From a virus, in the IMG/VR virus record IMGVR_UViG_3300032291_004435, positions 1-45,547 of that record: DNA of 45,547 nt, one strand, 5' to 3'. Below, piece by piece: positions 1,507 to 25,200 of this stretch; position 1 is the first letter of the stretch, and every line of letters begins with the position of its first letter. The notes beneath the pieces were generated by a model, which was not told the origin of the DNA, did not search any database, and saw only the letters and a list, made by a program, of their open reading frames with translations. A program made the translations under genes and the position numbers.

Positions 1507-1508
1507 AG

Positions 1509-3863: not shown

Positions 3864-3872
3864 ATATATACC

Positions 3873-5517: not shown

Positions 5518-5530
5518 ATGCGGTTATCTC

Positions 5531-5749: not shown

Positions 5750-5759
5750 AAACTACCTC

Positions 5760-7165: not shown

Positions 7166-7183
7166 ATAAATCCTCCTAACCTA

Positions 7184-7189
7184 ATTATA
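7184..7189 (-). promoter_or_regulatory. Possible -10 box for the terminase block
   Basis: A perfect TATAAT reads on the minus strand in the short gap between the Gp37-like gene and the small membrane protein gene. The best -35 candidate 18 bases upstream is TAGGCA, which matches consensus at only four positions. This is one of the few gaps in the late operon that could hold an internal promoter, so a separate transcript for the terminase/portal block is possible. Confidence 0.3.
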
Positions 7190-7213
7190 CTCCCTATTGT
7201 AAAGACTTGCCTA

Positions 7214-8623
7214 TTATAACTTTGTAATTTCTTCAGTCATGTCGGTGCCAAATCCTGCAATGTTTACGGCTTCCCATTGCACATCTTCGGTGACAACTCC
7301 GTTAGAAATATTTATAGACACAGCATTTATACGATAATTGTCTCTGTATGCGCGATAATCAAGCGTCACAATATCTCCCAAATCCCAATCTATCCCACGA
7401 ATGGATGTTGGTGTAGGTACTGCTTTGCCTTCTATTTTTACACGCGGCACACGCTTAGCCAATTGCAATGCGGCATCATTGGCAAGAAGCATTGGAACAG
7501 TATACGTTCGAGGATTACCTTTAATAACTTTCATTTTTGAGTCGCGTTTGTATCTTTCTTCTTTAATTTGCGGGTTACTCAATGCTTCGCGCAAATTAAA
7601 AGGACTATCAGATAATCGACGACGATTTACCGCAGCTTTTATATCTTCGTCTTTATCAATACTGTACATGACCGTTGTTTCTTCAGAACGGTCAATCGTC
7701 ATCTTTGCATTAGCAAGATTTCCACGATAAGAAGAAAAGATAAAAGAGCCGTCTCCGCGATTTTTTCCGTACAAATTTGGAAATGTTTTAAACATGAATT
7801 GCCGTTCATTTATAGCAATCAAGTCAAAAGAAAGCCAAATAGGAGCAAATCCATTTTCCTCAGAGCCTTCAACACTTTGTGATTGCAATGATTTCAACAA
7901 TTCATAAACAACATCTCCGTTGCAATCTGTCGAAACACCATATATTCCATCTTGCTTGTTTGGTTCAACAATAATAAAATTTTGCAAATCTAGATTTGGC
8001 AACTTTAAGTCTTCGGTCCAATTCGCTTTCCCCTTTGAGCCTTTAGCGCTTGTCATGTAATTCCAACGACGTTTGTTATTAAAAATTCCAAAAATGCCGT
8101 TGTGCGGTTCTGTTTGGTATGCTGCAGCAGCACTAATATAAGCAAACGAAAAATTCTGACGGACAATGCCTTTCATAATATCGCCGCAGAATCCTTTTTT
8201 TATTTTTGTTTCGTCTTCAACATCTGGGCCATTCCAGCTTGATTGTTGTGGACCCCAATTGTTCCCAGTAAAACCACGATAGGCATTTAGACGTCTTGTA
8301 AGCAATTCCAATGCATGATATGCAGTAACTTTTGTGTATGAATCGGTATATTCAAATGCTCGAACAAAAAACATAGCATTGTTATCAAGAACATATGGAG
8401 CTCCATTTATAGAGCGCCATACTCCAATCTTATAATCAACATTTGTCCATTGAAAATACTGGTCTAGCTCTCCTCGTGGCACCGTCAAAGATAAAGCTCC
8501 AATTTGCCCGTCAGCTCTAATTACATATTCCAATCCTGAACCACCAGCGTCGACAATATCGGTAATACTGGTAAGAAAATCACCATATGAATTGTAGAGT
8601 CGAACTTCAAAATTTACAGTCAT
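7214..8623 (-). CDS. Gp37-like siphovirus tail/baseplate protein
   Basis: This 469-residue protein resembles the siphovirus ReqiPepy6 Gp37-like family of baseplate hub proteins. The N-terminus reads as a beta-rich hub domain with FEVRLYNSYGDFL, then VDAGGSGLEYVIRADG and LSLTVPRG. The C-terminal part has the typical WDLGDIVTLDYRAYRDNYRINAVSI stretch in pieces, a beta-barrel feature of this family. It would form the ring at the tail tip to which the adhesins attach. It follows the Dit-like giant protein by two bases, consistent with the tail-tip order. A GAGGT site precedes the ATG at 8623. Confidence 0.7.
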   Translation of the reverse strand: MTVNFEVRLYNSYGDFLTSITDIVDAGGSGLEYVIRADGQIGALSLTVPRGELDQYFQWTNVDYKIGVWRSINGAPYVLDNNAMFFVRAFEYTDSYTKVTAYHALELLTRRLNAYRGFTGNNWGPQQSSWNGPDVEDETKIKKGFCGDIMKGIVRQNFSFAYISAAAAYQTEPHNGIFGIFNNKRRWNYMTSAKGSKGKANWTEDLKLPNLDLQNFIIVEPNKQDGIYGVSTDCNGDVVYELLKSLQSQSVEGSEENGFAPIWLSFDLIAINERQFMFKTFPNLYGKNRGDGSFIFSSYRGNLANAKMTIDRSEETTVMYSIDKDEDIKAAVNRRRLSDSPFNLREALSNPQIKEERYKRDSKMKVIKGNPRTYTVPMLLANDAALQLAKRVPRVKIEGKAVPTPTSIRGIDWDLGDIVTLDYRAYRDNYRINAVSINISNGVVTEDVQWEAVNIAGFGTDMTEEITKL

Positions 8624-8625
8624 AT

Positions 8626-11600
8626 TTACCTCAAAAGAAGCGGATTAGTTTGTGTATATAAGGCATCATGCACAGAATTGAATCCCATGTTCCACGACAA
8701 TGTGACTATAACAGGAGGAACAATAACATTCTGATTGAAATTATATGCAATATCAGATAATGCAGTAAGTGTTTTTGTGTATCTTTGTATCGGCATTATA
8801 GGACCGTATCGAATAACATTTTTCCCAGGTATCAAACGAAATATTTGCGCATTCTCAAACTTGAGTTTTCTGATATTTCTTGATGATAAATAAGAATCGG
8901 TAATATCCCCAGACAAATTTGAAATAATACTGATACGTTCTTTTTCTGTTCGTATGCGTATTATTTCTCCTGTACTAATTGACATATTCAAATACATGGC
9001 CTGACCCGTTGTTACATTAATTATGGAATTGATGTATCCAGTTACATTCACATTGCCTTTGAATGGAGAATACAACGAAATTGTAGGGTACACAGAAATA
9101 GTTCCACGGTTGTAACAATTAAATGTCTGCATTACCGCAGCATCATACAGAGTATTAGTGTAATTTTGTTTTGGAATAGAGATTATTGGATATGTATCGG
9201 TGCCAGATTCGTCATATTGGCTCGGTATAGCAAGAGGAGCACCGACACTTATAGTCGGTGCTTGCATAAGTTTACGGTCAACACCTTCTATAGTTAATCC
9301 CCCCATGCTCGTGACTGTTTGCGGTATGTTGACATTTGCATATGCATAATTTAAAGCGGTATAAACGTTAGAAAACATTCCCACCGATGCATCAGAAAAT
9401 AGTTTTATAGGAGTAGTTTCTGCTCCTGTTATGTACACAGCTTGGCTCATTTTAGACTTATATATATGAGAAGGAACATGTGCTAATCCTAATGACGATT
9501 GATAAATGGAGCCCCAATTTGTGTTAGCAACAAGACTGTTTGAGACGGATACGGGAGAAGTTAAATTAGCAACCGAATGAAGTACAACATTTTGTTGCGT
9601 TGTGTTAGTTGTGAAATTCCCTGTCGCCCATAAGTTCTGTTGATAATCTACATCGCAGCTATTGATGTATTGATTTGCTCCTGTATAAGCTGTAGTGAAA
9701 TTAGAAACACTAGATGCATTGCTTATTGTTATGCGAGCTATAGGAGAACCCGATGTTATGCTTGACGAACCGCATTGGAATGGAGTTCCTGCACTTATGG
9801 ACCAAGAACCCACTGGTATCATTTGTGTTGGACGATTATTTCCGCCAGTATCAATTCCCACCCATGGCACATAAGCAATGTCTTTCACAAATGTGTTCGT
9901 AGTATATGGTGTATTTATTGCAACCCCTTGCGCAGTCCCTGCAGTTTGATTAAAGTCGATTTTGTAATATTGATATTGATTTGTCACTAAGGGATAAACA
10001 GAACCAGATGTGGAATATACGGCAAGTCTACGAGCATCAATGGTTGAATTTCCATTTGATACCTCAGTAAAGTCGCCTCCAATATAAACAATTTCAGGGT
10101 CGGCTTTTGAAACTGGACTTATAAACGGATGTGAGGCTTTTACTGCATAAACAGTATCATTTCTGTTATTAGTGCCACACAATCCAGGAGTCCGATAAAG
10201 TCCATAGTTCATGTACGGGATGCTAATATCTGCTTCATAATTTTCAGGAATGTTGAATTGAATATCTGTATTGAGAGAATTTCTCTGAAGCTGAATGTCT
10301 ATGAAATTTTTAAACCTGACATTGCCTATATTAAAATCAAATCTTCCGCCTACATATAGATTTGTAGGAACGGTATAAGCACCATATACTCTGGTTTTCA
10401 CGTCAATAGAGTAAACTGCTCCATTGGAAACATTCCTGCGGTCATCACAATTAATGCCAAAATGGGGAGTATCTTCGCCAGAAACACCATAATCATAATA
10501 TGGACTTTTTCCTGATGAGAAAGTTAATACTCTATACGGAAATGGAGACGTGTTAATGTCATAGCGCAAAGCAACAAGATTGTTTACACGAAAATAAGAA
10601 TCAGCTATTTTTATGTAGTCAAAACGACCGCCAATAAAAATCGTATCATACGTTGCATAAACTGGAAAGTTACTAGAAACACGCGAACTCATTCGGACTG
10701 AACAATTAACTGTTCCACTACTCCATGTATCTGAGGGATTTCGGATTAAAAATTCGATTGGCAAGTCTTCTAAATCAAATATAGAGCGTAATATTGAATA
10801 TGAAGATTTAACCCACGCAACTTCCACTCCAGCTGGGCGAGCATAAGATTGAATTTTGTCATAAACAGAATGCAGAACTGTAGTTTTTTGCGAGTTTGGT
10901 CCCGCATAAAGAAATATATTATCTGCAGAATCAACAAAGACACGTTGCATGATTTTTTGTATATTTGGCATGAAATAAATGCCAACTCCTTGAAAAGATA
11001 AACCATCCCATTTAGCAATACTATCAACAGATGCTTTATTTTTAATATTGCGAAAATCTCCACAAAAATATATGTCATCATCTGAGTTTACAGACATAGA
11101 ATATACAGCGGGGATATCATTATAAAAATCATTTGCGTAATTAGCTTCTAATCCTCTTGTGATATCGATAAAATAACCATTCCTAAATTCAGCAATTCCT
11201 GTGATTTTAGTTGGCGGTAACATGCTTTTATTTATTCGGTTAAAATCACCTGAAACATATATTCTTCCATCAGATGTCTGCACAACATCATAGAAATTTG
11301 CTGACACCAGTGGAGTGCCTTCTTTATATCCTCCACCCCCAGAAAGCTGTACATCAGCATCATTTGGGGATGTGTCGCGCAATGTAAATAATCCAACACC
11401 AAATGCAGGTATTGTAGAAGCAGTAGTCCCAAGCAATGTAAACTTTCCAACAAAAAATATATTCACTCCATCAGCTAAATACTGAATAAGCATTTTACGG
11501 ACAATGGTGTCATTACTTACTGCAGAAGTTACTGGGTTCACACCAAACGTGTTAGCGGAGTCCAAGTTTAAAAATCTATTATCGTTGATATCGTATTTGA

Positions 11601-13899
11601 CAATACGTGCTGCATTGAAAGAATTGTATGGGCTAGCAGCATTAGACACAACAAAGAATGTGCCACATATATATAGACATCCAAAATAGTTATCATATTT
11701 GATATCGTAAACAGCAGAATTAGCATCTGGCGTTGTTGGCCCGATAATGCCAACTTCCGTAAATGTACCGTACTTACAATATGGAATAAGAGAATTAACC
11801 CAATCGGTTCGCAAATAACCACGACCTCTGCTGGTTGCGCGCAATTGCGGTTGAGAATAATCAACAGAAACAAATGAATATAAATGTTCAGGAACGTATA
11901 AATTTACATTTTGTTTATCAGACCCCCATGGGGTAAACGCAGCAAAATTTATAAAACGTCTACCGCCCATGGTGAAATCAAATTTTCCGCCAATATACAT
12001 TGTTCCATCAATGCCAAATTCGATAGCACGAACCGTTCCTTTTCCTGGTATGCCAACAAATGCAGGGTTCAATTCAGTACTGTTTGAGAACCTCGTTGGT
12101 GCATCTAATAACGGTATGATTTGCCAATCGCAATGATATGCATATTCGGTCAATTCTGGTCCATTTTCCACGGTGGTAACTTCAACAGCTCCTGGAAGAA
12201 TATATGACATGTTTGACATTGCACGATTTCGTATTCCAACTATATTTGAAACTCGCACACGGAATTTTGTGGTAGTCGATTCGATAGAAGCTGGCTTTAA
12301 CCAATATCCTTCAATTTCAACAACATCAAAGCGTCCACCAAACCAAATAATTCCATCACTGTCTTCTGTTATTACGTAAACATCACCCACTTCATAATAC
12401 GTTTTAGCATCATAAGTTTGAGCTGGCCCTGTGCCGCTATACGGCAAAGTTGAAGTGTATTGAGAATCAGTAGCCTTAAAAAAAGCAATGTTATTTGGTA
12501 TTTCCCATTTTTCTTCAGACTTGTTATATAACAACAATCCGCCAATATTTCGCAATACATCAATATTCATTGTGTTGAATTGGTCATACATCGGATTATC
12601 GTTAAACATACTTGAAGCACTGTCATTTTGATACTGAATATAATTTGACACGACTTGAAAATTTAAATCAATGTCGGATTGAAAGATATTTGCAGTGTCT
12701 AATTCCAGACCCGAAGAATATACAACGTCTACAAAAAATGGAACAAAATTTAGCCCGTTTGTAAAAGACAATTCAAAGTATAATCGAACGGGTTGGGCTT
12801 CTGAAAAAGGTCTTTTGCCAATCAATTCTTGGAATCGTGCAAACGATTCCATGAATTGTGCTTCGCTATCGGTAATAATACGTCCGCTTATGCTTATATT
12901 GCGACTGTTTGTTATTTGGTCAACAAATAATTGACCGTCTTTCAAAGTTTTAGTGAATACTTCTGTTTTTTCATTTGGAGATTCAAGTCCTTGGACATTT
13001 TTTGCATAAAAACTGCAGTAATCGTTCAGTCCAACCAATTCTCCATTCACTCTGGTTGCGTGCGAGCGAATCGACATTGACTTATGAGCTTCGCCAGTCC
13101 ATTGAAAGTCTTTCGGGTATGAATACGAATTAAATCCTTCAAACCCTCCATCGAAATACATTGTGGCCATAGTTTGATACGGTTGTTTTTCTAACTGGAC
13201 CGCATCTATTACAAAATAAATCTCATGTGAAGCGGAAATTTCATCAGTTGTACGAGTAATAGAAAAATAAAAATACGGATAACTTTTTACTGATGAAGGC
13301 AAATCAAAAACAAAACGTTCCCACGGATAAAAATACGGATTCATTGCGCCGCTTATACCTTTTTCCAAATCTCCTGGGGTATCTTTCGGCAGTGTTTTTA
13401 CTGTGAATTTTTTTGATGCAGCTAAAACGGGATTTGTTCCCAAAGAATCGGAACACCCAAATATTTTTACAATATATTCAATTGATTTTTCTGGAATTAT
13501 AACCGCATAAAGGGCTGGGCTGTCTCCATATCCTTTAGCATCAACAACAGAATAATGATAAAAACTAAGAATATCGCGTTCTGTTGGGGTTGTTGTTGTT
13601 TGAATAGCTCTTTGCAATCCATATGTAATTACATCATTGCTGCTGCTCATACGTGCTTTCCATGCATACGAACCAGAATACGCATGGTGAAATGTTATAG
13701 GATACGCAAAAAAATTAGCAGTTGTCCACGACCAGTTATAGTGACGCAGAGTCCCGTCAACACTATATGTAGGCATTTCAAATGATGGATTTTCGATGCG
13801 GTTTGTTGTAGCATTAGAGGCAACAACACGGATTTGATTCTGAGATGCATTAAGAAATCCATCGACATTAACTTGCTGATTAACTTGATAATTTGTCAT
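8626..13899 (-). CDS. Giant Dit-like tail protein with inserted beta-propeller repeats
   Basis: This 1757-residue protein has four parts. Residues ~30-250 resemble a carbohydrate-binding jelly roll (NRIENPSFEM start). Residues ~280-425 match the N-terminal half of Dit-like tail proteins (NVQGLESP, then DGQLFVDQI, then ISISGRI). Residues ~500-1440 hold about ten repeats with a [IVLY]xxGG[RKD]F[DT] strand, for example IIWFGGRFDV (518), TMYIGGKFDF (633), IYVSGDFNR (880), IFIGGRFDY (1087) and LYVGGRFDF (1181). Residues ~1596-1700 match the C-terminal half of Dit (NRGTISVYPTI, INVTTGQAMYLNM, FRLIPGKNVI). The propeller therefore appears inserted inside the Dit fold. A paralogue lies at 15849-19268. 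Likely location is the tail tip, with a role in host surface binding (inferred). Confidence 0.72.
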   Translation of the reverse strand: MTNYQVNQQVNVDGFLNASQNQIRVVASNATTNRIENPSFEMPTYSVDGTLRHYNWSWTTANFFAYPITFHHAYSGSYAWKARMSSSNDVITYGLQRAIQTTTTPTERDILSFYHYSVVDAKGYGDSPALYAVIIPEKSIEYIVKIFGCSDSLGTNPVLAASKKFTVKTLPKDTPGDLEKGISGAMNPYFYPWERFVFDLPSSVKSYPYFYFSITRTTDEISASHEIYFVIDAVQLEKQPYQTMATMYFDGGFEGFNSYSYPKDFQWTGEAHKSMSIRSHATRVNGELVGLNDYCSFYAKNVQGLESPNEKTEVFTKTLKDGQLFVDQITNSRNISISGRIITDSEAQFMESFARFQELIGKRPFSEAQPVRLYFELSFTNGLNFVPFFVDVVYSSGLELDTANIFQSDIDLNFQVVSNYIQYQNDSASSMFNDNPMYDQFNTMNIDVLRNIGGLLLYNKSEEKWEIPNNIAFFKATDSQYTSTLPYSGTGPAQTYDAKTYYEVGDVYVITEDSDGIIWFGGRFDVVEIEGYWLKPASIESTTTKFRVRVSNIVGIRNRAMSNMSYILPGAVEVTTVENGPELTEYAYHCDWQIIPLLDAPTRFSNSTELNPAFVGIPGKGTVRAIEFGIDGTMYIGGKFDFTMGGRRFINFAAFTPWGSDKQNVNLYVPEHLYSFVSVDYSQPQLRATSRGRGYLRTDWVNSLIPYCKYGTFTEVGIIGPTTPDANSAVYDIKYDNYFGCLYICGTFFVVSNAASPYNSFNAARIVKYDINDNRFLNLDSANTFGVNPVTSAVSNDTIVRKMLIQYLADGVNIFFVGKFTLLGTTASTIPAFGVGLFTLRDTSPNDADVQLSGGGGYKEGTPLVSANFYDVVQTSDGRIYVSGDFNRINKSMLPPTKITGIAEFRNGYFIDITRGLEANYANDFYNDIPAVYSMSVNSDDDIYFCGDFRNIKNKASVDSIAKWDGLSFQGVGIYFMPNIQKIMQRVFVDSADNIFLYAGPNSQKTTVLHSVYDKIQSYARPAGVEVAWVKSSYSILRSIFDLEDLPIEFLIRNPSDTWSSGTVNCSVRMSSRVSSNFPVYATYDTIFIGGRFDYIKIADSYFRVNNLVALRYDINTSPFPYRVLTFSSGKSPYYDYGVSGEDTPHFGINCDDRRNVSNGAVYSIDVKTRVYGAYTVPTNLYVGGRFDFNIGNVRFKNFIDIQLQRNSLNTDIQFNIPENYEADISIPYMNYGLYRTPGLCGTNNRNDTVYAVKASHPFISPVSKADPEIVYIGGDFTEVSNGNSTIDARRLAVYSTSGSVYPLVTNQYQYYKIDFNQTAGTAQGVAINTPYTTNTFVKDIAYVPWVGIDTGGNNRPTQMIPVGSWSISAGTPFQCGSSSITSGSPIARITISNASSVSNFTTAYTGANQYINSCDVDYQQNLWATGNFTTNTTQQNVVLHSVANLTSPVSVSNSLVANTNWGSIYQSSLGLAHVPSHIYKSKMSQAVYITGAETTPIKLFSDASVGMFSNVYTALNYAYANVNIPQTVTSMGGLTIEGVDRKLMQAPTISVGAPLAIPSQYDESGTDTYPIISIPKQNYTNTLYDAAVMQTFNCYNRGTISVYPTISLYSPFKGNVNVTGYINSIINVTTGQAMYLNMSISTGEIIRIRTEKERISIISNLSGDITDSYLSSRNIRKLKFENAQIFRLIPGKNVIRYGPIMPIQRYTKTLTALSDIAYNFNQNVIVPPVIVTLSWNMGFNSVHDALYTQTNPLLLR

Positions 13900-14567
13900 T
13901 CCACTACCTCTAACCGCTCTAATACATTCACAAGGCCAGAAACATCGCCTAATGGTAATATAGAAAACTCAATGCATTTGAATGCTTCCGCAGATATCAT
14001 TGCCGCATCCGTACGATATATTCCCACTTGAAATTTTGTAAATCCATCAGAAACTAAATAAATGGTGCTGATAGTAGCAGTTTGAACAATTGGCCACAAT
14101 CCCCACGAAGTAATTGTTGAACCTTGTGCATTGTTTGTTGAAAAACCTTGCTTGATTGCAAATGTACTTGAAGGCGTAACGCCTGCTAAAGAATCTGATA
14201 CAGGTATTATCATTAAATAAAACGTTGGTTGGTTGGAATCAGCAGCACTTGTTTCTGAATGTTGAATCGTTGCTGAAATCCAAACATATCCTCTATAAAC
14301 GGGGGAAGACAATGTACCATATGTTTTATCAGCATAGTCTTCATCGCCACGCGTACCTGTAAAAGAAACAAAACGGTGCACTTCATTTAAATTTGCAATT
14401 GCAACGGCGGAATTTGTCATGGTTACCGCATTGCCAGATGATATATTTATATATTCATCATATGCGTATTGAATATTCCCGCTTGAACCAAAATAATTAT
14501 TCCAATTCGAAGATGTTATTGTGTCTCCAGAAGAAAAGCTAATGTCAACATCTGTATATTTGGGCAT
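13896..14567 (-). CDS. Short adhesin-like tail protein, copy C
   Basis: This 223-residue protein is beta-rich and has an N-terminal anchor-like motif TITSSNWNNYFGSSG with W22. The rest has features of a compact beta-sandwich (alternating hydrophobic/polar strands, YRGYVWISATI, FYLMIIPVSD). The gene overlaps the giant propeller protein gene by four bases (ATGA). It shares the x-W-N-x motif near the N-terminus with the two genes upstream, which suggests three related proteins that attach to the tail tip through the same short element but carry different heads. A receptor-binding role is inferred from position only. Confidence 0.5.
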   Translation of the reverse strand: MPKYTDVDISFSSGDTITSSNWNNYFGSSGNIQYAYDEYINISSGNAVTMTNSAVAIANLNEVHRFVSFTGTRGDEDYADKTYGTLSSPVYRGYVWISATIQHSETSAADSNQPTFYLMIIPVSDSLAGVTPSSTFAIKQGFSTNNAQGSTITSWGLWPIVQTATISTIYLVSDGFTKFQVGIYRTDAAMISAEAFKCIEFSILPLGDVSGLVNVLERLEVVE

Positions 14568-14568
14568 A

Positions 14569-15159
14569 TTACACCATCCCAGGATTAATGATTAAGTGTA
14601 AATGTCCTATACATCGCAGGTCAGTATGATATCCGTGCGCAACCGTTATTCTATGTCTATCAGTACTTTTATTTGACACACCTGCATACGCAGCATCAAG
14701 ATATGTTTGTGAAGCATCATATTTACGCAAAAAATGTGAAGCTATTACGGTGGTAACAGTAGTTTTAGCTACTACAGCTGTTCTATTTAATGTTGTTCTG
14801 AAATTATATCCAGTAAAAGATGGTTCAACAAAGCGGACACGCCACAATGCTAAAAATGGAGTTTGGTCTGGAACACTGAATATTCCCGCTGTTCTGTTAA
14901 AATACGCACCAGAAGATATGCTTGTAAAAGTAACAACAGTACTGCCAGTTGCTGTTGAAGATTTTATTGGCACGATAAAATCCCATTCAGCAACGTACAC
15001 ATTGCAGTCTGCTCTTTTATTTGAAGCTTGTTGAACATAGGCAGCACTTCCGCTATTAGACAACATATTGTTCCAATTATTAACCGAAACAATTGTATTA
15101 TCTTTTAAATTTTGCGGTTGTGTCCATATTGGTTTTGTGTATTTTGTTACAAGAGTCAT
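14569..15159 (-). CDS. Short adhesin-like tail protein, copy B
   Basis: This 196-residue protein has the motif IVSVNNWNNMLSNSG around W29, alike in spacing and residues to the copy at 13896-14567. The rest is predicted beta-rich with many threonines (RTAVVAKTTVTTV) and a C-terminus containing several histidines (HRITVAHGYHTDLRCIGHLHL). The start codon overlaps the stop of the previous gene (ATGA). Nothing identifies a specific ligand or enzyme. Confidence 0.5.
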   Translation of the reverse strand: MTLVTKYTKPIWTQPQNLKDNTIVSVNNWNNMLSNSGSAAYVQQASNKRADCNVYVAEWDFIVPIKSSTATGSTVVTFTSISSGAYFNRTAGIFSVPDQTPFLALWRVRFVEPSFTGYNFRTTLNRTAVVAKTTVTTVIASHFLRKYDASQTYLDAAYAGVSNKSTDRHRITVAHGYHTDLRCIGHLHLIINPGMV

Positions 15160-15842
15160 AGATTAATATTTCTCCCACAATTTGTTTTTCCGCCAACAAG
15201 CTCCGTATATCCTAGTGTAATTCGCATTGTATCTGGAGCAGTTCCTGTGAAAAGTAATTTATATCGCACACTATATGGAATGCTGGCCCCATTTCTATAA
15301 GCAACAATTTGTTGTGTACGTAAATTCACGGATTGCCCATTTACAAGGTTTACATTTTGCGCAACACCACTACGAGGGCTTGCGTTAACAAGAATTTGAG
15401 ACATTGCAGCAGTCATGTTAAGTGGGACATTTGGGATATATAAATTTGTCCATAATAAATATGTGGAATTTACATTTGGTCTGAAATATCCATTTACAAC
15501 ATCTAATGTTGAGCGACCTTCTTGATTGGCGGAATTATATAAATTAGATATGCCATTATACGAAATTACCGTAAACCAACTCCCACTAGTGAAACTAGTA
15601 ATGTCTTTCCACATATACGTCGAGCGGACATCTCTATATTGAGTGTACCGTGAACCATATGATTCAATACTTCCCAGTGTATATCCTGCCCAAGTTTTTC
15701 TATATGCATCTAAATATCCACCATACGTATACGCCGTGGCATCGTAAAAGTATTGCGGGAATCTAGTCTTTTGTATTGAATCCGTCCATTTACTGACGGT
15801 AATTGTCATATCTGGCGTTGCGGGCCTAAAATCGTCTGTCAT
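15156..15842 (-). CDS. Short adhesin-like tail protein, copy A
   Basis: This 228-residue protein carries a related but less conserved N-terminal motif TITVSKWTDSIQK around W19. It is unusually rich in tyrosine in its first half (YFYDATAYTYGGYLDAY and beyond) and ends with beta-strand-rich sequence. Aromatic-rich surfaces are common in carbohydrate-binding tail proteins, so host-surface binding is plausible but unproven. It follows the first giant Dit-like gene by six bases. Confidence 0.5.
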   Translation of the reverse strand: MTDDFRPATPDMTITVSKWTDSIQKTRFPQYFYDATAYTYGGYLDAYRKTWAGYTLGSIESYGSRYTQYRDVRSTYMWKDITSFTSGSWFTVISYNGISNLYNSANQEGRSTLDVVNGYFRPNVNSTYLLWTNLYIPNVPLNMTAAMSQILVNASPRSGVAQNVNLVNGQSVNLRTQQIVAYRNGASIPYSVRYKLLFTGTAPDTMRITLGYTELVGGKTNCGRNINL

Positions 15843-15848
15843 AATGTC

Positions 15849-18800
15849 CTATGTGAGCGGCGACGAATCATATCCGATTCGTCCAATATCTAAACGCAAT
15901 CCTCTTGTTGACCAAGGATAAAAAGGATTTTGAGTTTGCACATCATCAACAAGAATTGTATCTAATCCTAATTTTGATTTGTCTAATTCCCATGCAACCA
16001 TTGATTCTTCTATTGTTATTGTATCCGATTCGTGTAGCACATATGGAGATATTTGTTTTGTTTGATACCTCAATTTAACTTTTAGAGGACGGACAAATCT
16101 TCCTGAATAAGATTCGTTTGCAGAAGTAGCTCGTTGGCCACCCAAGATTTTCAACAAATTTTTTCCTTCGGCTAAGAAAAAATTAGCAAATGTTCCGCCG
16201 CCTACAATACTTCTTATCACACGTGAACGCAAGTTGCTCGTTGCACGAACATTTGCTTTTGTAAAGTCAATTGTTATTGTTTCATTGCGGAGAATGCGCA
16301 TATTAAATGTAATAGATTTGTCGGTTGTTACGTTATATATAGAAAGAAGATGTGCATTTCCATAATTAGATGCTGGATTGGTAATCTCTAAACTAAATTG
16401 CGTTTCCATTCCAACGTTATCAATAATTATAGGTTTCGGAGTGACAAGTTTATTTTTATTACCAGCTTTTGTGTTTGCAATTTTTGCAGAAACAAAACCG
16501 TATCCACGTTTAGAAACAAATACAGATGCTGCGTTTGCTATTTCCATTTCAAAATCCATAGCTTCCCACCGATTATTTGTCCATCGCGCAATACACAAAG
16601 CATAATCGACACTGCCAATTTTATTGAATTGTCCAACAGCATATACATCATCCGTGTACGGAGAAGAGCAGACACTATTGATAGATAATTCAGATGTTTT
16701 AAAAGTAATTCCAAATAAACTTGTAACGCCAACTCCGTTATCCATTGGAGAAAATCTGCTGAACCCATCCCATAGCGCAATTTTGGAATAATTCATTGTG
16801 TTAATAAGAGGCGTTGGCAGGGTAACATCATTATAATCAATTTTTGTGAAATTTCCGCCTATCACAATTGCTCCCGATTTAGTTTTTGTCATTGTAAAAA
16901 CAGGAGCATTAAAAGTTGATTGCGTTGCAGGGAGAAAAGACTTATTTGCAGCCGTAGCTTTTTGATTGACCATAGCTAAAGAGCGCATGCGGTCCAATGT
17001 TAAATCGCTTGCAGTAATTCGATACAATAATGCATTTCTTGTCTGTGTCACTACATTAACACCTGCAGAAGCATATGCTGCGTCGAAATCTCCGCCAACA
17101 ACAACTCCGCTATTATTATCATTGAATGCCATTGCATATACAGGACCATTTATTCCGTATTGCATTTGAGACCATTTTTGCGTAACTGAAATTGAATATA
17201 TAGCTGCATTACGAAGTTGATTTCCGCTTCCTGTTGCGTTTTTAGAACGAGCAAAATAGCCACCAACATAAATACAATCTCGTTTACCATCATATAAAAG
17301 CGTTCGTACAGAAGTGGGTTGCTTTTTGTCTGCAGCTGCGTTTACCGCCATTAATCCACCGTCAACATCTCTGTTTTCACCTTTGACTTGGCCATTAGTA
17401 AGCAGACTTGGAATAAACCAGATGTTTTTGCAATCATAAGTCAAATTTAATACTTTATCGAATCGTCCACCAACCATTATACTTTCATCGTTTGTCTGAA
17501 CAATAGAATATACGGTTGCGCCAGGCCCACTTACTCCGTTATAGTCATTGTATGTTTTTCTAGGAGCATTTCTTAAATCAAAAGAACGGACAGGAAATAT
17601 GGTCCCGTCGGGATTCAAAAGAGCAAGATGGTTGCAGTTAAACGAATTTACAATTCCATTGATTATCCATACTACTTTTGTGAAATCCCCGCCAAACAAT
17701 ATTTGTCCGCTTTTTAATTCACACCAGCAATGAACATATCCATTAGTGTAGAGATTATACGTTTGATAATTAAAGAAAGAATCACGATTTATAACAACAT
17801 TTTTTTCATTTACTGAAGTGCTGTAATCTGTGTTCGGATTGCCTCCCTGCGCTTTAAATAAAATCACAGGAAAAGTTGGCAGTTTTTGTTCGGGATTTAA
17901 TACATTAGGCACGTCATACGCATATGTATCTCCCCAAAAATAAACATCTAAATTATTCAAATCAAAAGAAATAATTGTGCTTGGGCTTTCATGAAGACGG
18001 TCTACGGTGATTTGCTCAACAACTGCATCAAAATATGTATAATCGCTAAAATCGGTACAACCAAGCGGGACACGGTAATAGAACCTGCGTTTTGTTCCTA
18101 TTCCCGAACGGGCTTTTGACAGAAAAAATTGTAGCTGGCCAGTCTTACGCATTGTATCAAGCAGAGTATCGCCAACAATATATCCTTTTATGCTTATTTT
18201 TCTTGAATCTATTCCAGAACCTTGAAATTGCTGGCCATCACCCATGGTAAATGGAGTGACATCATTGATTTGAGGAGGAAGTCCTAACCCCTGCATATTC
18301 ATGACACTCATATCAAAATCTGTTTGAAAATTGTATAAAACTCCTCCGCTATGTGCTTCGGTAGTTCTGTAACTTGTGCTTTTTTGGGGAGCTCCGTCCC
18401 AAAAATATCCAATACTTGGAACAGCATCGTTTTTGCCAAAATCACCATCAAGATAGGTGGTTTCTATTTGAAATTCATCATCATAAAATTCAACTTGAAC
18501 GGCATCCAAATAAAAAATAAAACTATAATTCATTGACGGGTCATTATTCTGAATAGAAAATCGTACATATGCAGGAATATCTTCAGAATACTTTATAGAA
18601 AATGGAACTTTATATCGAACCCATTCGGGGTTTTTCCTTCGGCCAATCACATTTGGTTCTATATCTTCAGAAAAATAGGAAGGCGGAGGTGTATTCAAAT
18701 CTATTGCACGTGATGCAATAATTGTCTGGTCAAGGAATGAACCGTTAGGAAGTCCCGTTGTTGCGTCAACCGTTGCATATATATTGACAGTAATCGGGTG

Positions 18801-19268
18801 CGTACTATTGCCTTCTTGATAGAATTTCGAAAAAGGAGTATATCTATCAATTGCAGGAACAAATGCATAAAAAGACAACATCCCGCGAGTGTAATAATAC
18901 ACTTTGTCCCCAGTTACAAATTGATTTGTTATCATTGTTTTTGGCGCAACAATAGGTTGCGCCAAACCATATACAAGAGCATCGGTGTTGTTGGTAAATA
19001 CTACACGCATTGACCGATAACCGTTGTATACATTTTCAGATGTAACCGCTCCAACAGAATTTGATGTCAACATCTTGTTTGCTGCGTAATCATATTCTCC
19101 AGATGTATATCCATATGGAAAAGATTCGCCAATTTCGTCTATTTCAAACGATGGATTTATCACATGATTACGACGGGCTACGGGAACAACAAATGATATT
19201 TCACTTTCAGTAGTGTTTGGCCGTAAACTTCCAGGAAGCTGCGGTACAGCGTAAATATCATATGTCAT
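15849..19268 (-). CDS. Dit-like tail protein with inserted six-repeat beta-propeller
   Basis: This 1139-residue protein has the same order of parts as the protein at 8626-13899. An N-terminal jelly-roll-like region opens with NHVINPSFEI and spans to ~265. A Dit N-terminal half follows at ~310-440 (MNMQGLGLPP, DGQQFQGSGI, SIKGYIVGD). Six GGxF-type repeats lie at about 524, 597, 666, 722, 801 and 875 (ILFGGDFTK, IMVGGRFDK, IYVGGYFAR, VVVGGDFDA, IVIGGNFTK, VYAVGQFNK), enough for one six-bladed propeller. The Dit C-terminal half is at ~960-1045 (SIYNVTTDKSITFNM, FFLAEGKNLLKI). It directly follows the tape measure gene, the normal Dit position. An AAGGTGA site precedes the start. Confidence 0.72.
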   Translation of the reverse strand: MTYDIYAVPQLPGSLRPNTTESEISFVVPVARRNHVINPSFEIDEIGESFPYGYTSGEYDYAANKMLTSNSVGAVTSENVYNGYRSMRVVFTNNTDALVYGLAQPIVAPKTMITNQFVTGDKVYYYTRGMLSFYAFVPAIDRYTPFSKFYQEGNSTHPITVNIYATVDATTGLPNGSFLDQTIIASRAIDLNTPPPSYFSEDIEPNVIGRRKNPEWVRYKVPFSIKYSEDIPAYVRFSIQNNDPSMNYSFIFYLDAVQVEFYDDEFQIETTYLDGDFGKNDAVPSIGYFWDGAPQKSTSYRTTEAHSGGVLYNFQTDFDMSVMNMQGLGLPPQINDVTPFTMGDGQQFQGSGIDSRKISIKGYIVGDTLLDTMRKTGQLQFFLSKARSGIGTKRRFYYRVPLGCTDFSDYTYFDAVVEQITVDRLHESPSTIISFDLNNLDVYFWGDTYAYDVPNVLNPEQKLPTFPVILFKAQGGNPNTDYSTSVNEKNVVINRDSFFNYQTYNLYTNGYVHCWCELKSGQILFGGDFTKVVWIINGIVNSFNCNHLALLNPDGTIFPVRSFDLRNAPRKTYNDYNGVSGPGATVYSIVQTNDESIMVGGRFDKVLNLTYDCKNIWFIPSLLTNGQVKGENRDVDGGLMAVNAAADKKQPTSVRTLLYDGKRDCIYVGGYFARSKNATGSGNQLRNAAIYSISVTQKWSQMQYGINGPVYAMAFNDNNSGVVVGGDFDAAYASAGVNVVTQTRNALLYRITASDLTLDRMRSLAMVNQKATAANKSFLPATQSTFNAPVFTMTKTKSGAIVIGGNFTKIDYNDVTLPTPLINTMNYSKIALWDGFSRFSPMDNGVGVTSLFGITFKTSELSINSVCSSPYTDDVYAVGQFNKIGSVDYALCIARWTNNRWEAMDFEMEIANAASVFVSKRGYGFVSAKIANTKAGNKNKLVTPKPIIIDNVGMETQFSLEITNPASNYGNAHLLSIYNVTTDKSITFNMRILRNETITIDFTKANVRATSNLRSRVIRSIVGGGTFANFFLAEGKNLLKILGGQRATSANESYSGRFVRPLKVKLRYQTKQISPYVLHESDTITIEESMVAWELDKSKLGLDTILVDDVQTQNPFYPWSTRGLRLDIGRIGYDSSPLT

Positions 19269-19270
19269 AA

Positions 19271-22200
19271 TTATTCACCTTGAAATGCAGACATGACAGC
19301 AAATGAGCGCTGAACAAGTTGCGGGCTTTGATTTGTTTGTACACCAAGGTTGTAATTGTATTCATTTGAAACTTGGCTTATAGCTGCTTGTCGTTTTCCT
19401 GCAAGCGCAACGGCCGATATGTCAGGTTGATAATTCCTCTGGACAGGTGAGGTGATTACTCCACCAATTGCTTTATCAACTGCATTAGAATTATCACCAA
19501 TGCCCATTGCAACACCTGCGCTAATATTAGCGCCAATTTTATCGGCAAACAATACAGAAGGCGAGTGCATATCACCGCAAGTCTCTGCAGCTAAAACTGC
19601 TGCGTCAATCAATGCACATGCTGCGTCATGAATAGCTTTTCTTGCTTTTTCATTATTCATACCTTTAGCAACGCCCGCTGCAATATTTTCGCCCACTTTT
19701 TCTGCAGCGACTCCCCATCCGTCGGCACCGCTTCCGTCCGATGTATGTCCCAATGCAGTGGCCAATACGGTATTAAATGTCCAGTCTGATTTGCCTTCTT
19801 TATTATCAATATATTCAGCAAAACCTACATCAACAACTTTACGAGCAAGCAATCGTCCCAAATCAGAGGCTGCGGTAAATAAAGATATAACCTGTTGGCT
19901 TTTTGCGTCAGGAGTAAAACCAAGTTGTAATTTGTAAAATAATTTAGTAAACAATGATTCGGCAGGTGTTTGCTCATTGAAAAACCCAGCAATGAATTGT
20001 GTTGCGGATTGTCGTCCCATAGCAAAGAATGGTCCAGAGTTCAACGAAGCAGCGCCAGCAGCTGCTCGGGATGCTCCTTCGGAACCCACGTCTCCCATTC
20101 CTTCCGCACCGCCCGCAGGAATAGCTGAGCTGCTTGCACCAACGGCTGCTGCCATTGCGTCCGCAACCAAATATGCATTCTCAGAAATACCTTTGGCAAC
20201 ACCTTGAATTAGCGGCAACCCAAGTTTGTCTCTATATAATTTTGATGGAGATTCAGTTTTAGTAGCTTCATACATAGCACTTAAAACGACCCCGCCGTCC
20301 CCTAATTGTTCAGTAAGTACTCCAACAACTTCAGTAGCACCTGCAGTAATTCCTTCTGCAACACCTGCTGGTAACGACTCGCCGACTAACATCCCATGTT
20401 TTTTGATATTTTCTGGGTCAAGAGATAATATTTGTTGTGTTGACAAGTTCGCAACATCTATTTTATTTCCGTCTTTGTCGGTTCCAACGCCTTTTATAAA
20501 ATTTGTCGTCCAAAGCTGTCCATTTGCAAGAGCTGCTCCTGCCACAATATTGTCATATCCACTCAAGAAAGTTTCAGCCATTGTGCCTGTAATGTTTTTG
20601 CGGTCAGCAAATTTAGCAGTACCATCAACATATGGTTGGAACCCTGCATCAATATCAGCTTGCGTTGGCATAACACCAGCGGCAAGTATAGCTCCAAGTC
20701 TTTGCGCATCTTGTTGTGAATACATTTCCATAAGAATGCGTTCATCATTTGTCATCACACCATCCATCATGGCTTGACCTAAATATGCTGAAGCTGCTAA
20801 TGGAAGGTCTCCCACTGCTTTCTTAAGTTTTTCTTGTTCTTCAGGTGTCAGAGCTTTAAATGCTGCAGATTGATTTTTCGGGTCAACAGCAGTAGATATA
20901 CCTTCTCTTACTCTTTGAAATGCAGTATCAGCATACGTTTTTGCATCACCTGTAATTTCTCCGTCTGCCACTTTTTTGTCATAATCTCCAAGATTGCCGA
21001 CATTAACACCAAGAATGTCTCTATACGAGCCAGTAAGAGCTGTATTATCCCATTGCATTCCTTGAACCGCTTTTGCTTTTTTCTGTGCTTTTTGTTGAGC
21101 GGTCAACGCTGGGTCTTTATCAATGGCGTTTAATTCTGTTTGCAATTTTCCTGCGGCAGTTAAATATCGTTCTTTGTCCGCACGGTCAAGAGCCATTAAA
21201 CGTTGAAATTCAGCATAGTCTTCTGCCGTCATTTTTTGTCCTTTTTTTAGTGACAAAAATGTTGCAGCTCTATTTCCTACTTGACCATATTGTTCCATTA
21301 ATCCTGGTGTGTTTGCAAACGTGTCTGTTAATCCATGAAATTTTATCCCAGTATCACCGTATTGCATTTTGAAACCTGCAACAGCTGTGCTAACATCACC
21401 AAATTCACTATCGTATTGTTCGGGAACTAATTGGTCAGAAAAGAAAGAAGCTGCTTGCGGTAATTGACTGACAGGAATGTATCCTTGTTTTGCATTTTGA
21501 CCTTTTATCTTCGCGGCACTTTTTTGTCCTGTTTTGTAAGTTTTTCGTATTTTCCGTACGGTGAATAAATTTGGATTTCTGAATTCATTGCTTCCGAATG
21601 CAAGTCCGTCTGCCATACCTCTATTTATATTTATACCACCAATAGGAGTAAACGGACCTGTAGGAACATCTGATTTATTGTACGGATTGACACTTGTATA
21701 TCTTTCAATATCATTTTTCGGAGCTGCTGGAGCGTTAGGTTTATCTGACTGTGCGTCTATTTCTTGTCTTTTCGCATTTTCAATTACGGCAAGCGCGGCT
21801 CCATTAAATCCTGTTATCATCATATTTGTCGTATCTGCCATAGATTTAACATACAAACCTAATTGTTTGTCATAGTATTGGTCTTTGTTTCTTCCTCTAT
21901 GACCCATATTAATACCTGCAAATGGCTTTTCACTTGTATAATACATACCATTGAAGGTTTCTGATGCGGGCCCTCCGTACTTATCATTAAAAAAACGATT
22001 GCCTAACGGGTTTGCGCCTGGCATATACGTACCTTTATCATAATATCCTAATGTTCTCATAGCATCAGCTGCAAGCTTTGAAGATTTAGCTGTGCTTTTT
22101 GAATATTCAAGCTGTTTCAAAGCAAATCTAGAAGGTTTGTTACCTTGTTTATTAACAGTCATGTTTTCATGAGTTTGAATATATGATGATGGCGCTTGCG

Positions 22201-25200
22201 TTGGAGCAGCTTGAGTAAAGCTTGGTATGATTTTGTCTACAAGTTGGTCTCTGGTCATACTTGTTCCATTTATTCCACTTTGATTTTTTAAAAAATCAGC
22301 AGAAGCAAAGTCAGATGTTTGCACATATTCAGCTAACCCACCTGCATATCCCATAGTATTAAGTACTTCATCTAATTTAGTTTTTGCAGTTATACCATAC
22401 AACGCATCTCTTGCTCCAAAACCTTCTCCTGTTTCACTTGTTTTCAATAAACCTTTGATAAATTCTGGGTCTTGAGCTTGAGCTCCATAGACACGATTAA
22501 AGTCGGCACTCATCATTAACGTACGCACAGCATCATTTTTAAAATCAAACTGAGCTTTATAATCAGCTTCCGCTTTTGCTTTTGCAATGCTTAAATATGC
22601 ATATCCAGCAGCTTGAGCAGGAATAGTGAATGATGGCTTTGTAACTGTTCCGTATTCAGTTAAGTTTGAAGCGCTATGTACAGGATTTGGTTTATTTCCA
22701 TAAATAGTTTCGTAAGAACTCATTGTAGAGTTTCTACTAGCAACTACTTGCGCAGGCGATAATCCTTGGTAATTTGCATAAGGCGTAGAACCTGTAATTG
22801 GAGTTGGTTGTTCTTTATTTATGTATGAAATTTCTAAAGTAGACATTCTCTGCATATCTGCAATAGAGTTTTTAATAGGAGTTTGCATTGCTTCGGCCAT
22901 TTTGGTCGAAGCACTCCAAATCAAATCTTCAGAGCCGTAAATTCCTTGAGCAATACCATTAACAAAATTTTCACCAATTTTAACCCCTTTATACGAAGGA
23001 GATTTAATTAATAACTCTTTCTCTGCTGCATCCACTAAGCTATTGCCAACTATTCCACGAGTTGCATTAGCAAGTTTATTTTTATTGGCTTCCATACCTG
23101 ATTTCATTCCGTCGGTGAAAGCCATTGCAGATTTTGCTCCGCCTTCATTAAGAAATTTATCAGTTTCCTTATTCATGTCTTTTGTTAACGATTTTTCGTC
23201 TATTTCACCAAGATTAAAAAATCGTAGAAATCTATTTATCTGCTGCACAGTGCCCATTATAATTGTCTGCATTGAACCCATTATCATGCCAACAATACCC
23301 TGCAACATATTGCCAATACCATACATCGCATCAGATGCACCACTTTTCAACAAATCCCAATTGCCTGTGATAATGCCTTGAAATAAACCAAAAAATATTT
23401 TTAAAACACCACCAATGGTCAGCAACGCACCTTGAATAATCACTACCATTGATTTGAATATGTTTGCTATACCATCCATAAATGCTGATTGGCCTATTGC
23501 AGTAAATTGCGCACTTATCCACGTCCAAACAGGAATAATAGCTTCGCCAATCATACTCATTGTTTGTTGAATATACGTCCACATAAAACCAAATTTTTCA
23601 ACAATAAATGTTTGCATACCTGCAATATTATTTTGAAATGCGTATACAAAAGCAACAACAACAGCAGTTGCTATAACAATTGGTGAAGTTAACAAAGCAA
23701 ATGCGCCAGTGAGCATATTGGTCCAACCAACGGCTGTTGTCAACGGAGCAACAAATCCGCCAACCGCTGCTGACAATCCAGTCCAAAGTCCCATAAGCTT
23801 AGTCATAATACCAAGCTGTCCAGCTGCGGCTGCTGTTGCAGGGGCAAATAAGTCTAATTGAACGGCAGCAGGCGCTGCTTTTGCAGCACCGCCAGAAAGT
23901 TTTTGTATCAATCCCCCAATGCCTGTAGCAGCTGCTCCTTCAGGCTGAGTAATAGCCAATATGTTAGCAAAAAATCCACCTGCTCTAGATGATGCTTGAG
24001 CGACGCTTCCCAACGCAACGCCTAAATCAAGAATATTATTGGTCATAGATGCGACTTTATCAACCGCCATAAGTCCCAACATCAATTTGAAACCATTTAA
24101 AAGTGAATCCCAATTATCTATAATCCAAGACATTGCGCTTGCCATGTTTTCAAAGGCAAAAACGGTCCAGCTTCCTACTTGTTCCAACAGAGACGGTAGG
24201 TTTTTTACAAAAGACTCTACAGCATTGTATATTTTTGTCAACAATACACGAAATCGTTCGCCTTGTTCGTCAAGTTCTTTGCCAGAAGCGCCGAACAAAC
24301 TAGCCAAAGCGGTAGAAATAGAGCTAATAGTAAATCCATCTTTGCCAATGATTTTTATAACTTCACGAAGATTGACAGCATATTTAGCAGCGGCATCAAA
24401 CAATACTCCAGCGCCTGGCAATAAACTCGTTTCTATAAGTTCTTTACGAGTGTCAGCCATTTGCTTGTCAATATCAGCTGCATCGGACATAACAAGTCCA
24501 ATAGCATTACCAATTCCAGAAAATGTCTGAACGATATTCGACATTGGCTTCATCAATGGCATGGTCAGCGTTTTTTGCAAAGAGTCTAATGTGCCTTTGA
24601 GGAATTCCATATCATATTCAAGACCTTCATTTTTAATATCCGCAATGCTTTCAGCCGAACGAACACCATCGCGGGCGTTCTGCGTCATGTCCGCAGCCAT
24701 TTTATACATTTCTTCAGCCTGCTCATCGGTCATTTCTACCATACGAGCAACAGCTTTTAATGCATCTTGGCCGAATATATCGGTAATAATTCTGTTTTTC
24801 ACATCAACGGCCATACCTGAATTTTCACCAAAAACTTCACGAAGTTTTTTGGTCATAAATTCTATGCCTTTGAATCCTTTTTCATCAAAGAATACAGATT
24901 GGCCAACGGAGTCCATCAAACCAAGTTGTTTCATGGCTCCTTTTGCTTTGATACTACGACCGCCTGAAATACCAGAGAACACGTATTTCAAAGATGTACC
25001 AGCCGATGCCGCACTTTCGAATGCAGGAACCATTTGAGAAACAAGCGACATGGTTTCGAAAAAACTTACATTCAAATTTGACGCAGAACCACCAACGTTA
25101 AACAGAGCTTCGGTCAATTGTTGCGCGCTTGCAGCAGAAGAAGAGTCTGCCGCAGCTAAACCGTCAACAATTATTTGATATTGTTCACCAGCATCCGCAA

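Follow-up and report, generated by a model that had tools for sequence, protein, structure and literature searches.

Two tail genes of an uncultivated virus recorded as IMGVR_UViG_3300032291_004435 (the window, 45,547 nucleotides, is the whole stretch analysed) encode paralogous proteins, P0002 and P0001, in which the two halves of a distal tail protein (Dit) are split by a long insert with a predicted β-propeller fold. We consider it likely that both are evolved Dits, with propellers seated in the linker between the halves and with CBM-like domains and propellers serving as outward-facing adhesion domains.

Dit halves and gene order

Both ORFs, first described in an earlier note on this DNA, were recovered at the same positions on the minus strand (Table 1). 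The propeller-Dit genes occupy the Dit position in the tape measure, Dit, Tal order: the tape measure gene lies directly before P0002, and the Tal-like P0004 directly after P0001. Among the relatives described below, the preceding gene encodes a tape measure protein in 6/6 family members tested, and 65 of 73 family ORFs are followed by a gene homologous to Tal. P0004 matches hub families weakly (phrog_538, 0.0052; Sipho_Gp37, 0.0035); phmmer connects it to genes that follow propeller-Dits of other viruses; genes at this place match phrog_538 in 3/3 cases tested, as does that of the virus L107. The three small genes between the two Dits are candidates for accessory tail-tip proteins.

Table 1. 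Genes and domains of the tail-tip locus (window positions; residues of the respective protein).
Feature	Position	Strand	Remarks
P0004, Tal-like hub protein	7214..8623	-	469 aa; weak phrog_538/Sipho_Gp37 matches; phmmer
P0001	8626..13899	-	1757 aa; second propeller-carrying Dit; immediately before Tal-like gene
P0001 Dit C-terminal half	8806..9117	-	residues ~1595-1698; family DitC 1e-13 for 1597-1697
P0001 probable propeller B	9118..10776	-	residues ~1042-1594; homologous to A
P0001 propeller A	10891..12582	-	residues ~440-1003; predicted seven-bladed, closed; AF2 pTM 0.72; Z 25.2
P0001 Dit N-terminal half	12619..13209	-	residues 231-427; family DitN 4e-24; Sipho_tail 0.004 at 285-361
P0001 CBM-like jelly roll	13210..13854	-	residues ~16-230; BLASTP to P0002; weak family-profile match
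Three small genes between P0002 and P0001	13896..15842	-	228, 196, 223 aa; without clear family match
P0002	15849..19268	-	1139 aa; first propeller-carrying Dit; 2-nt gap after tape measure gene
P0002 Dit C-terminal half	16095..16421	-	residues ~950-1058; family DitC 4.4e-17; SPP1_Dit 0.0059
P0002 inserted beta-propeller	16476..17828	-	residues ~481-931; predicted seven blades; Rax2 2.6e-10; Z 22.8
P0002 Dit N-terminal (belt) half	17880..18512	-	residues ~253-463; family DitN 1.6e-24; pLDDT 84-91 over 291-380
P0002 CBM-like jelly roll	18519..19211	-	residues ~20-250, NPSFE at 37; family profile; low pLDDT in model
Tape measure protein	19271..26323	-	2350 aa; PHROG tape measure families, best 4.6e-23

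The main family profile, built from 19 viral ORFs with the window excluded, matches P0001 and P0002 (1.9e-62 and 2.4e-60) colinearly through the Dit halves and the insert, and gave no match in 102 reversed or shuffled versions or in 70 other window ORFs. Window-free profiles of the separate halves likewise match both proteins: DitN recognises the N-terminal belt (Sipho_tail/RIFT-related; 8.6e-26 in P0001, 1.6e-24 in P0002), and DitC the C-terminal galectin-like half (SPP1_Dit; 1.3e-15 and 4.4e-17). A search for Dit matches split around the insert had been proposed in the earlier note; direct Pfam matches stayed below curated cut-offs (Sipho_tail 0.004 in P0001, SPP1_Dit 0.0059 in P0002), whereas the family profiles do flank the insert.

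Dit-type matches are clear elsewhere in the family. Among 21 members, SPP1_Dit was matched by 13, the Dit profile phrog_33 by eight, phrog_106 by 13 and Sipho_tail by only one, reaching at best 3.9e-17 for phrog_33 and 3.3e-8 for SPP1_Dit; the Rax2 propeller was found in 21/21 and CBM_4_9 in 7/21. The ordinary minor-tail profile phrog_106 bridges the insert, its positions 35-263 aligning to residues 187-758 of one member (L101) and the profile likewise spanning 210-760 and 174-750 of two others (L095 and L063). Foldseek searches with the P0002 model retrieved the SPP1 Dit (2x8k, 7.7e-5), the NF5 baseplate (1.2e-4) and the monocin tip (5.1e-4), the alignment to SPP1 Dit covering 252 columns, too few to span the insert. 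As in evolved Dits, an extra domain lies within the Dit core of both proteins, with 585 residues inserted in P0002 and 1169 in P0001, compared to 340-436 in 84/87 ORFs.

Predicted propeller fold and the doubled insert of P0001

The inserts carry GGxF-type motifs which, with degenerate forms such as CGTF, VGQF and TGNF counted, number six in P0002 (residues 525, 599, 666, 722, 801 and 876) and ten in P0001 (518, 635, 743, 815, 881, 943, 1087, 1182, 1271 and 1424), in agreement with the six and about ten of the earlier note. A stricter motif occurs 5 and 8 times in the respective inserts, whereas 2000 shuffles reached at most 2 and 4. Pfam propeller families are found in both (Rax2 2.6e-10 in P0002, Reg_prop 5.4e-5 in P0001). 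AlphaFold2 modelling with fold searches gave a propeller in P0002 and in the first half (A) of the P0001 insert, bearing out the fold suggested previously: residues 470-930 of the P0002 model superimpose on WD40 propellers with Z 22.8 over 279 residues (rmsd 4.0), and half A, modelled as residues 440-1080, reached Z 25.2 over 291 residues (rmsd 3.1). Foldseek also paired the P0002 model with a seven-bladed designer propeller (4.8e-6). These models are of moderate confidence (mean pLDDT 66 for P0002 and 64 for P0001 440-1080), and quality is poor for the CBM region and the final 90 residues of P0002. The VIA lists were full of propellers and uninformative on the Dit parts.

The family consensus contains six GGxF motifs and a seventh, degenerate blade. 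Both the P0002 insert and half A are predicted to form seven-bladed propellers, so that the number of motifs does not equal the number of blades. For P0002, a count of six blades was rejected, since both the family consensus and the similarity to WD40 propellers point to seven.

The insert of P0001 repeats internally, with residues 517-770 in half A matching 1086-1296 in half B (BLASTP 4.5e-7, hhalign 3.6e-6). Half B matches half A over blades 1-3 and has four GGxF-type motifs. The insert is an internal duplication that probably forms two tandem propellers, the second assigned by its homology to the first. A single ten-bladed ring is rejected: half A is predicted to close by itself with seven blades, and the second half repeats the first. 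The earlier proposal of a propeller in each protein is upheld. A mixed alignment of the entire P0001 insert distributed single propellers across the two halves and was left out of folding.

Paralogy, relatives and known Dit inserts

In each protein, NPSFE begins at residue 37. By BLASTP, P0001 17-377 aligns with P0002 18-400 (25% identity, E 4e-16), and the C-terminal halves align as a separate match (P0001 1621-1708 with P0002 972-1048, E 7e-4). In a tree computed from Dit columns only, the two are sisters (98/94), nested among insert-carrying relatives, with branches of 1.86 for P0001 and 1.44 for P0002. These results uphold what the earlier note had read from the sequence: two paralogous Dit-type proteins with a shared order of NPSFE jelly roll, DitN, GGxF insert and DitC, and duplication of a Dit that, as the tree supports, would already have carried the propeller. 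Another virus, L107, also has two propeller-Dits, and the tree joins its own copies (86/90). Since each virus's two copies pair, one ancient duplication common to the window and L107 is disfavoured and independent duplications are favoured by the phylogeny; this is short of proof, the AU test leaving a pairing of P0002 with the first L107 copy unrejected (p 0.265).

Relatives were reached via a DNA pattern for YVGGDFT and then via a pattern for a motif outside the propeller. In total, other contigs, viral or from MAGs, yielded 73 ORFs of the same architecture, of which 61 are distinct at <85% identity; this rules out a unique invention of this phage. The motif Y.DGDQ.GC.W occurs in 107 ORFs; 32 of these, with only a short DitN match and without a propeller, were left out of the family as other proteins. 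The insert is present in 54/54 3'-complete members found by the non-propeller motif, and one member (L111) is a second case of a double-length insert. MAG contigs with members are labelled Armatimonadetes/Armatimonadota, Anaerolineae, TM6, Lentisphaerae and a Lokiarchaeota bin, these labels being those of bins that may contain misbinned phage. Of ten genome-contig loci, six contain the full set of four parts in a 3'-complete ORF, two are cut and retain the Dit N-half (one with the propeller), and a short DitN match is all that the remaining two show. In 377/449 member pairs at 40-75% Dit identity, the propeller shows lower conservation than either Dit half, an excess that vanishes above 75% identity (8/24 pairs); the pairs are non-independent.

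Against 50,697 phage records, tblastn with P0001, P0002 and P0004 gave 0 matches, and five family queries retrieved no full member, only propeller-only, CBM-only and Dit-half matches. The N-terminal 466 residues of P0002 yielded just five chance-level rows at E up to 10, and a related-locus search with P0001, P0002 and an alignment of both found no relative. A sequence search of the PDB was empty for P0002 and, for P0001, gave three rows at chance level; TerL searches gave remote matches only. In a plasmid search, five other members, on plasmids of Hymenobacter and Spiroplasma, were matches to the propeller.

Dits with inserted domains are already known ('evolved Dit'), and the earlier statement that Dits usually lack inserts is too strong. 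Evolved Dits of lactic-acid-bacteria and other Gram-positive phages are described as carrying CBM inserts; those of lactic-acid-bacteria siphophages (J-1 and others) share with the present proteins a Dit core with an inserted extra domain and the tape measure, Dit, Tal order. They differ from the present proteins, whose insert is a seven-bladed GGxF propeller (a stretch of ~350 residues in most relatives, and in P0001 one of ~1170 residues that probably holds two) and which have an N-terminal CBM-like domain and occur as two paralogs. The distal tail protein gp58 (583 aa) of Corndog similarly has a foreign domain between two Dit domains, but this is a Rossmann-like α/β insert, and the passages cited make no mention of duplication (PMC13252515). 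Gp16 of the Streptomyces phages Attoomi (437 aa) and ToastyFinz (444 aa) directly follows the tape measure and has a homologous DitC (1.5e-10 and 1.5e-11), whereas a different stretch of ~180 residues without a propeller match separates its halves. In a viral structure library, the Attoomi minor tail protein aligned to the P0002 model over 780 columns, around the propeller; given its 437 aa, at least 340 of these must be gap columns. Propellers as putative receptor-binding domains are described for phi11 receptor-binding protein gp45, PhiKZ gp131C and PRD1 P2; there they belong to separate proteins rather than Dit inserts, and that of phi11 is five-bladed (PMC4901313). The nozzle protein of podovirus SU10, as described, has a seven-bladed propeller inserted in a tail-tip ring protein, but within a platform domain rather than a Dit, and lining the channel (PMC9509320). 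Structurally, the P0002 model is matched best by an uncharacterized entry, A0A6J5MW16 (uncultured Caudovirales phage, 596 aa; 1.9e-24, 795 columns), probably of P0002-like architecture without the CBM. Our literature search found no published example of a propeller as a Dit insert.

Possible arrangement at the tail tip

We propose that the linker joining the Dit halves took up one self-closing propeller in P0002 and probably a tandem pair in P0001. In the predicted fold, the last blade takes its outer strands from the propeller's own N-terminal segment; the propeller ends therefore lie side by side and can fit a loop without disturbing the Dit ring. The Dit halves would form the ring or rings connecting the tail tube to the Tal-like hub, with CBMs and propellers pointing outward as multivalent adhesion domains that, from precedent, probably bind host-surface glycans ahead of DNA delivery; by analogy, the inserted propeller itself may bind saccharide. 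With the duplication, the virus would gain a second adhesion component, larger than the first and placed between the first Dit and Tal. More tentatively, and at somewhat less than even chances, the paralogs may build two successive Dit layers, an adhesion collar made wholly of Dit paralogs that replaces separate receptor-binding proteins, with doubling of the Dit gene and of the propeller as recurrent routes of enlargement. L107, with a second gene pair, and L111, with the second double-length insert, would then be cases of such enlargement. If there are two layers and each is hexameric, the propellers on display would number six in the first and twelve in the second, alongside as many as twelve jelly rolls.

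It is possible, if rather unlikely, that P0001 became a separate adhesin or baseplate-upper protein after the duplication, its Dit-like halves merely docking onto the P0002 ring or the hub. The longer branch of P0001, its doubled insert and its distance from the tape measure gene would fit this, but both Dit halves are kept with strong profile scores, and P0001 immediately precedes the Tal-like gene, as Dits of the family usually do. We think it unlikely, and a little more so, that the propeller is structural rather than receptor-binding, widening the tail tip, closing the channel or docking accessory proteins such as the three small ones, whose genes lie between the two Dits. The podovirus nozzle, in which blades 4-6 are described as running along the channel (PMC9509320), offers a precedent, and the constant presence of the insert in 3'-complete members is unlike an optional adhesin; however, comparable Dit inserts (the J-1 CBMs) are reported to protrude outward and bind host sugars, a CBM-like domain occurs within the same protein, and the propeller outpaces the Dit halves in divergence at 40-75% identity, unlike a channel-lining part. 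A single mixed ring (three P0001 plus three P0002) in place of two stacked rings seems improbable: it would ease the six-to-three symmetry step described at the Dit/hub junction, RcGTA is described as having differing odd and even distal tail subunits, and both paralogs lie in one gene run, but a single propeller-Dit directly precedes Tal in 65/73 relatives. Chance likeness to Dit, with P0001 and P0002 as unrelated tail fibres with β-rich ends, would accord with the sub-threshold Dit matches of the window proteins themselves but is largely refuted, and now highly implausible, given the clear Dit matches in the family, the bridging of the insert by phrog_106 and the gene position between tape measure and Tal.

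Read as propeller-carrying evolved Dits, the two proteins belong to a large family in uncultivated viruses that bears a propeller where the evolved Dits described in the literature bear CBMs. Annotators could thereby recognise the tail tip of viruses whose proteins are otherwise seen as hypothetical or Rax2-like propeller proteins, and the uptake of a whole propeller by a tail-tip ring protein, followed by duplication, becomes testable.

Two paralogous Dit-like proteins and their inserts

The two large tail proteins of the window, P0001 (1757 aa) and P0002 (1139 aa), are paralogous, as the earlier note had proposed: their N-termini are 25% identical across 393 aligned columns (E 4e-16), their C-termini align separately (E 7e-4), and a tree on Dit columns alone makes them sisters (98/94). 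Pfam places propeller families mid-protein in both, flanked by sub-threshold Dit domains (Sipho_tail before the insert in P0001, SPP1_Dit after it in P0002), and in relatives a phrog_106 match crosses the insert (L101, L095, L063 and both proteins of locus L107), consistent with the anticipated splitting of Dit matches. The claimed insertion of a propeller between Dit halves was further borne out by a family profile excluding the window sequence, which matched P0002 (1.9e-62) and P0001 (2.4e-60) in the colinear order CBM-like jelly roll, Dit N-half (DitN), propeller, Dit C-half (DitC), and by structure prediction.

The AlphaFold2 model of P0002, computed with 64 relatives, has a mean pLDDT of 66.2 and a pTM of 0.64; the Dit halves and blade cores lie mostly at pLDDT 70–92. 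Prediction is poor for the CBM part and for the C-terminal tail. In Foldseek searches of the PDB this single model matched a designer propeller with seven blades (4.8e-6) as well as SPP1 Dit (7.7e-5) and other tail-tip proteins, and by VIA its residues 470–930 reached Z 22.8 to WD40 domains, which we take to be seven-bladed. Among predicted viral proteins, its best match (1.9e-24) is a 596-aa protein of an uncultured phage, itself uncharacterized; many minor tail proteins and distal tail proteins rank below it. Residues 440–1080 of P0001, modelled with 34 relatives (pLDDT 64.1, pTM 0.72; fold search Z 25.2 over 291 residues), form seven strand groups, with the N-terminal strands placed as the closing blade. 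The family consensus contains six GGxF motifs spaced 47–49 residues apart and a seventh, degenerate blade, and its N-terminal segment has the pattern of a blade's last two strands; from this pattern, we read the segment as a putative velcro closure of the propeller.

The GGxF-type motif counts of the earlier note (six in P0002, ten in P0001) stand and exceed shuffled expectation, and its blade and propeller number needs revising: the fold is predicted to have seven blades, as in P0001 440–1080, and the P0001 insert probably holds two propellers, with a self-repeat in which part of 517–770 recurs as 1086–1296 (4.5e-7; hhalign 3.6e-6). DitN–DitC spacing is 340–436 residues in 84 of the 87 ORFs with both halves, the oversized inserts being those of P0002 (585 residues), L111 (742) and P0001 (1169). 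L111 (positions 2–3169) comes from another virus, and its insert is likewise self-repeating (31% over 194 residues, 2e-18). A further virus has an enlarged insert at L131 (647–3418), where nine GGxF motifs fall within the 490 or more residues present before the ORF runs off the stretch end.

Gene order at the tail tip

Tail genes of the window, in order of transcription
Feature	Coordinates	Strand	Remark
Tape measure	19271-26323	-	9/10 matching PHROG families named tape measure, best 4.6e-23
P0002	15849-19268	-	directly after tape measure
Small gene	15156-15842	-	between P0002 and P0001
Small gene	14569-15159	-	between P0002 and P0001
Small gene	13896-14567	-	between P0002 and P0001
P0001	8626-13899	-	after the three small genes
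P0004	7214-8623	-	Tal-like hub protein (469 aa), last of the run

In the window, a single virus record of 45,547 bases, this run is tightly packed, neighbours overlapping or parting by a few bases; continuing downstream in the transcription direction, one reaches TerS and TerL. Between tail genes and terminase is a phosphoadenosine phosphosulfate reductase-like gene (6214–6969; phrog_2302, 3.4e-17). The three small genes have a short N-terminal motif in common (ITSSNWNN, VSVNNWNN, ITVSKWTD); BLASTP of their products against each other is suggestive only (best E about 0.04). They may serve as accessory proteins that dock through one shared segment. G+C is 0.36–0.39 across the tail-tip genes (7500–19500) versus 0.43–0.48 in 1–7500, and mostly 0.40–0.46 right of 25.5 kb, with a single value of 0.35 there.

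A wider family and the age of the insert

Searches with the window proteins as queries found no relatives. Entry to the family came from scanning viral contigs for DNA encoding YVGGDFT, which gave 89 stretches and 82 motif-bearing ORFs of at least 150 aa; from 35 hand-picked among these, 19 with a Y.DG...W.G....S.S-type motif formed the profile. A second scan, with a motif outside the propeller (Y.DGDQ.GC.W), yielded 97 viral stretches and 10 genome contigs. Outside the window, 73 ORFs have all four parts (61 representatives at <85% identity). Pfam searches of 21 members matched Rax2 (21/21), SPP1_Dit (13/21), CBM_4_9 (7/21) and Sipho_tail (1/21), and PHROGs matched phrog_106 (minor tail protein, 13/21) and phrog_33 (Dit, 8/21). 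The MAG contigs carrying members (L094–L097, L099–L102) bear the bin labels TM6, Armatimonadetes/Armatimonadota, Lokiarchaeota, Anaerolineae and Lentisphaerae, which are the bins' and may not be hosts. Five viral ORFs (L048, L049, L044, L037, L069) carry 12–17 GGxF-type motifs and no recognised Dit parts, and are probably tail or surface proteins with several propellers each.

In 65 of the 73 members, a homolog of P0004 or of the L107 or L095 counterpart comes next; five have no room for a next gene, and three (L168, L060, L107) have a Tal-like homolog further on. The preceding gene is a tape measure in 6/6 tested, and the following gene matches phrog_538 in 3/3 tested. Locus L107 echoes the window's order: tape measure, a propeller-Dit of 842 aa, a protein of 720 aa, a second propeller-Dit of 602 aa in which no CBM was matched, and a phrog_538 protein. 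Within the available stretches, many of them short, a second propeller-Dit gene was seen at no other locus.

In the Dit-column tree, which includes long branches, the P0001/P0002 pair adjoins L033 and L036 (96/91), where no second copy was seen within the available stretch, and the two L107 copies group together (86/90); an AU test did not reject grouping P0002 with the first L107 copy (p 0.265). Because both pairs nest in a set where every member has the insert, the propeller appears, from these sequences, to be older than the duplications.

Absence of the insert was sought among 96 viral loci drawn with the non-propeller motif, where 66 ORFs match DitN across 100 or more profile positions and 54 of the 66 are uncut at the 3′ end. 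No uninserted member of the clade was seen among these 54, since the propeller was recognised in 52, and GGxF motifs missed by the profile are present in the inserts of the remaining two, L173 (436 residues) and L182 (410 residues). DitC is missing from the same ORF in 3/54, two of these (L133, L134) being split genes; there and at L174, the propeller-Dit gene is broken into two overlapping or adjacent ORFs, for which sequencing error, pseudogenisation and frameshifting are alternative sources. Outside the clade, L032 (342–4165) encodes an ordinary 275-aa Dit with a homologous C-half, a weak N-half match and no propeller; it adjoins a separate 1027-aa ORF with GGxF motifs, propeller and Dit here being neighbouring separate genes. 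Streptomyces phages Attoomi and ToastyFinz each have, directly after the tape measure, a gp16 whose C-half is homologous to the family's and whose N-half the family profile does not recognise; unlike family members, both lack a propeller and carry about 180 other residues at the junction. Judged by eye, the clade and these outside proteins appear to share one insertion junction, from the end of the belt half to the N.G.a..P with which the C-half begins.

Conservation and precedents

In comparisons of member pairs, which are non-independent, propeller conservation falls below that of both Dit halves in 377/449 pairs at 40–75% Dit identity, and mean CBM conservation is even lower. Below 40% the same holds for the propeller in 1284/2141 pairs, and above 75% no such effect is seen (8/24; 5/14).

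Published accounts describe a propeller with a modelled GlcNAc pocket in the phi11 RBP (PMC4901313), a Rossmann-like insert in the Corndog distal tail protein (PMC13252515) and an inserted seven-bladed propeller in the SU10 nozzle (PMC9509320). No propeller was found in passages of PMC13033339, nor any published propeller within a Dit in the open-licence full-text literature, as judged partly by title and abstract start. The propeller-Dit family has apparently gone unrecognised so far, and the window proteins are a new form of evolved Dit, a Dit with an extra inserted domain, within a large family.
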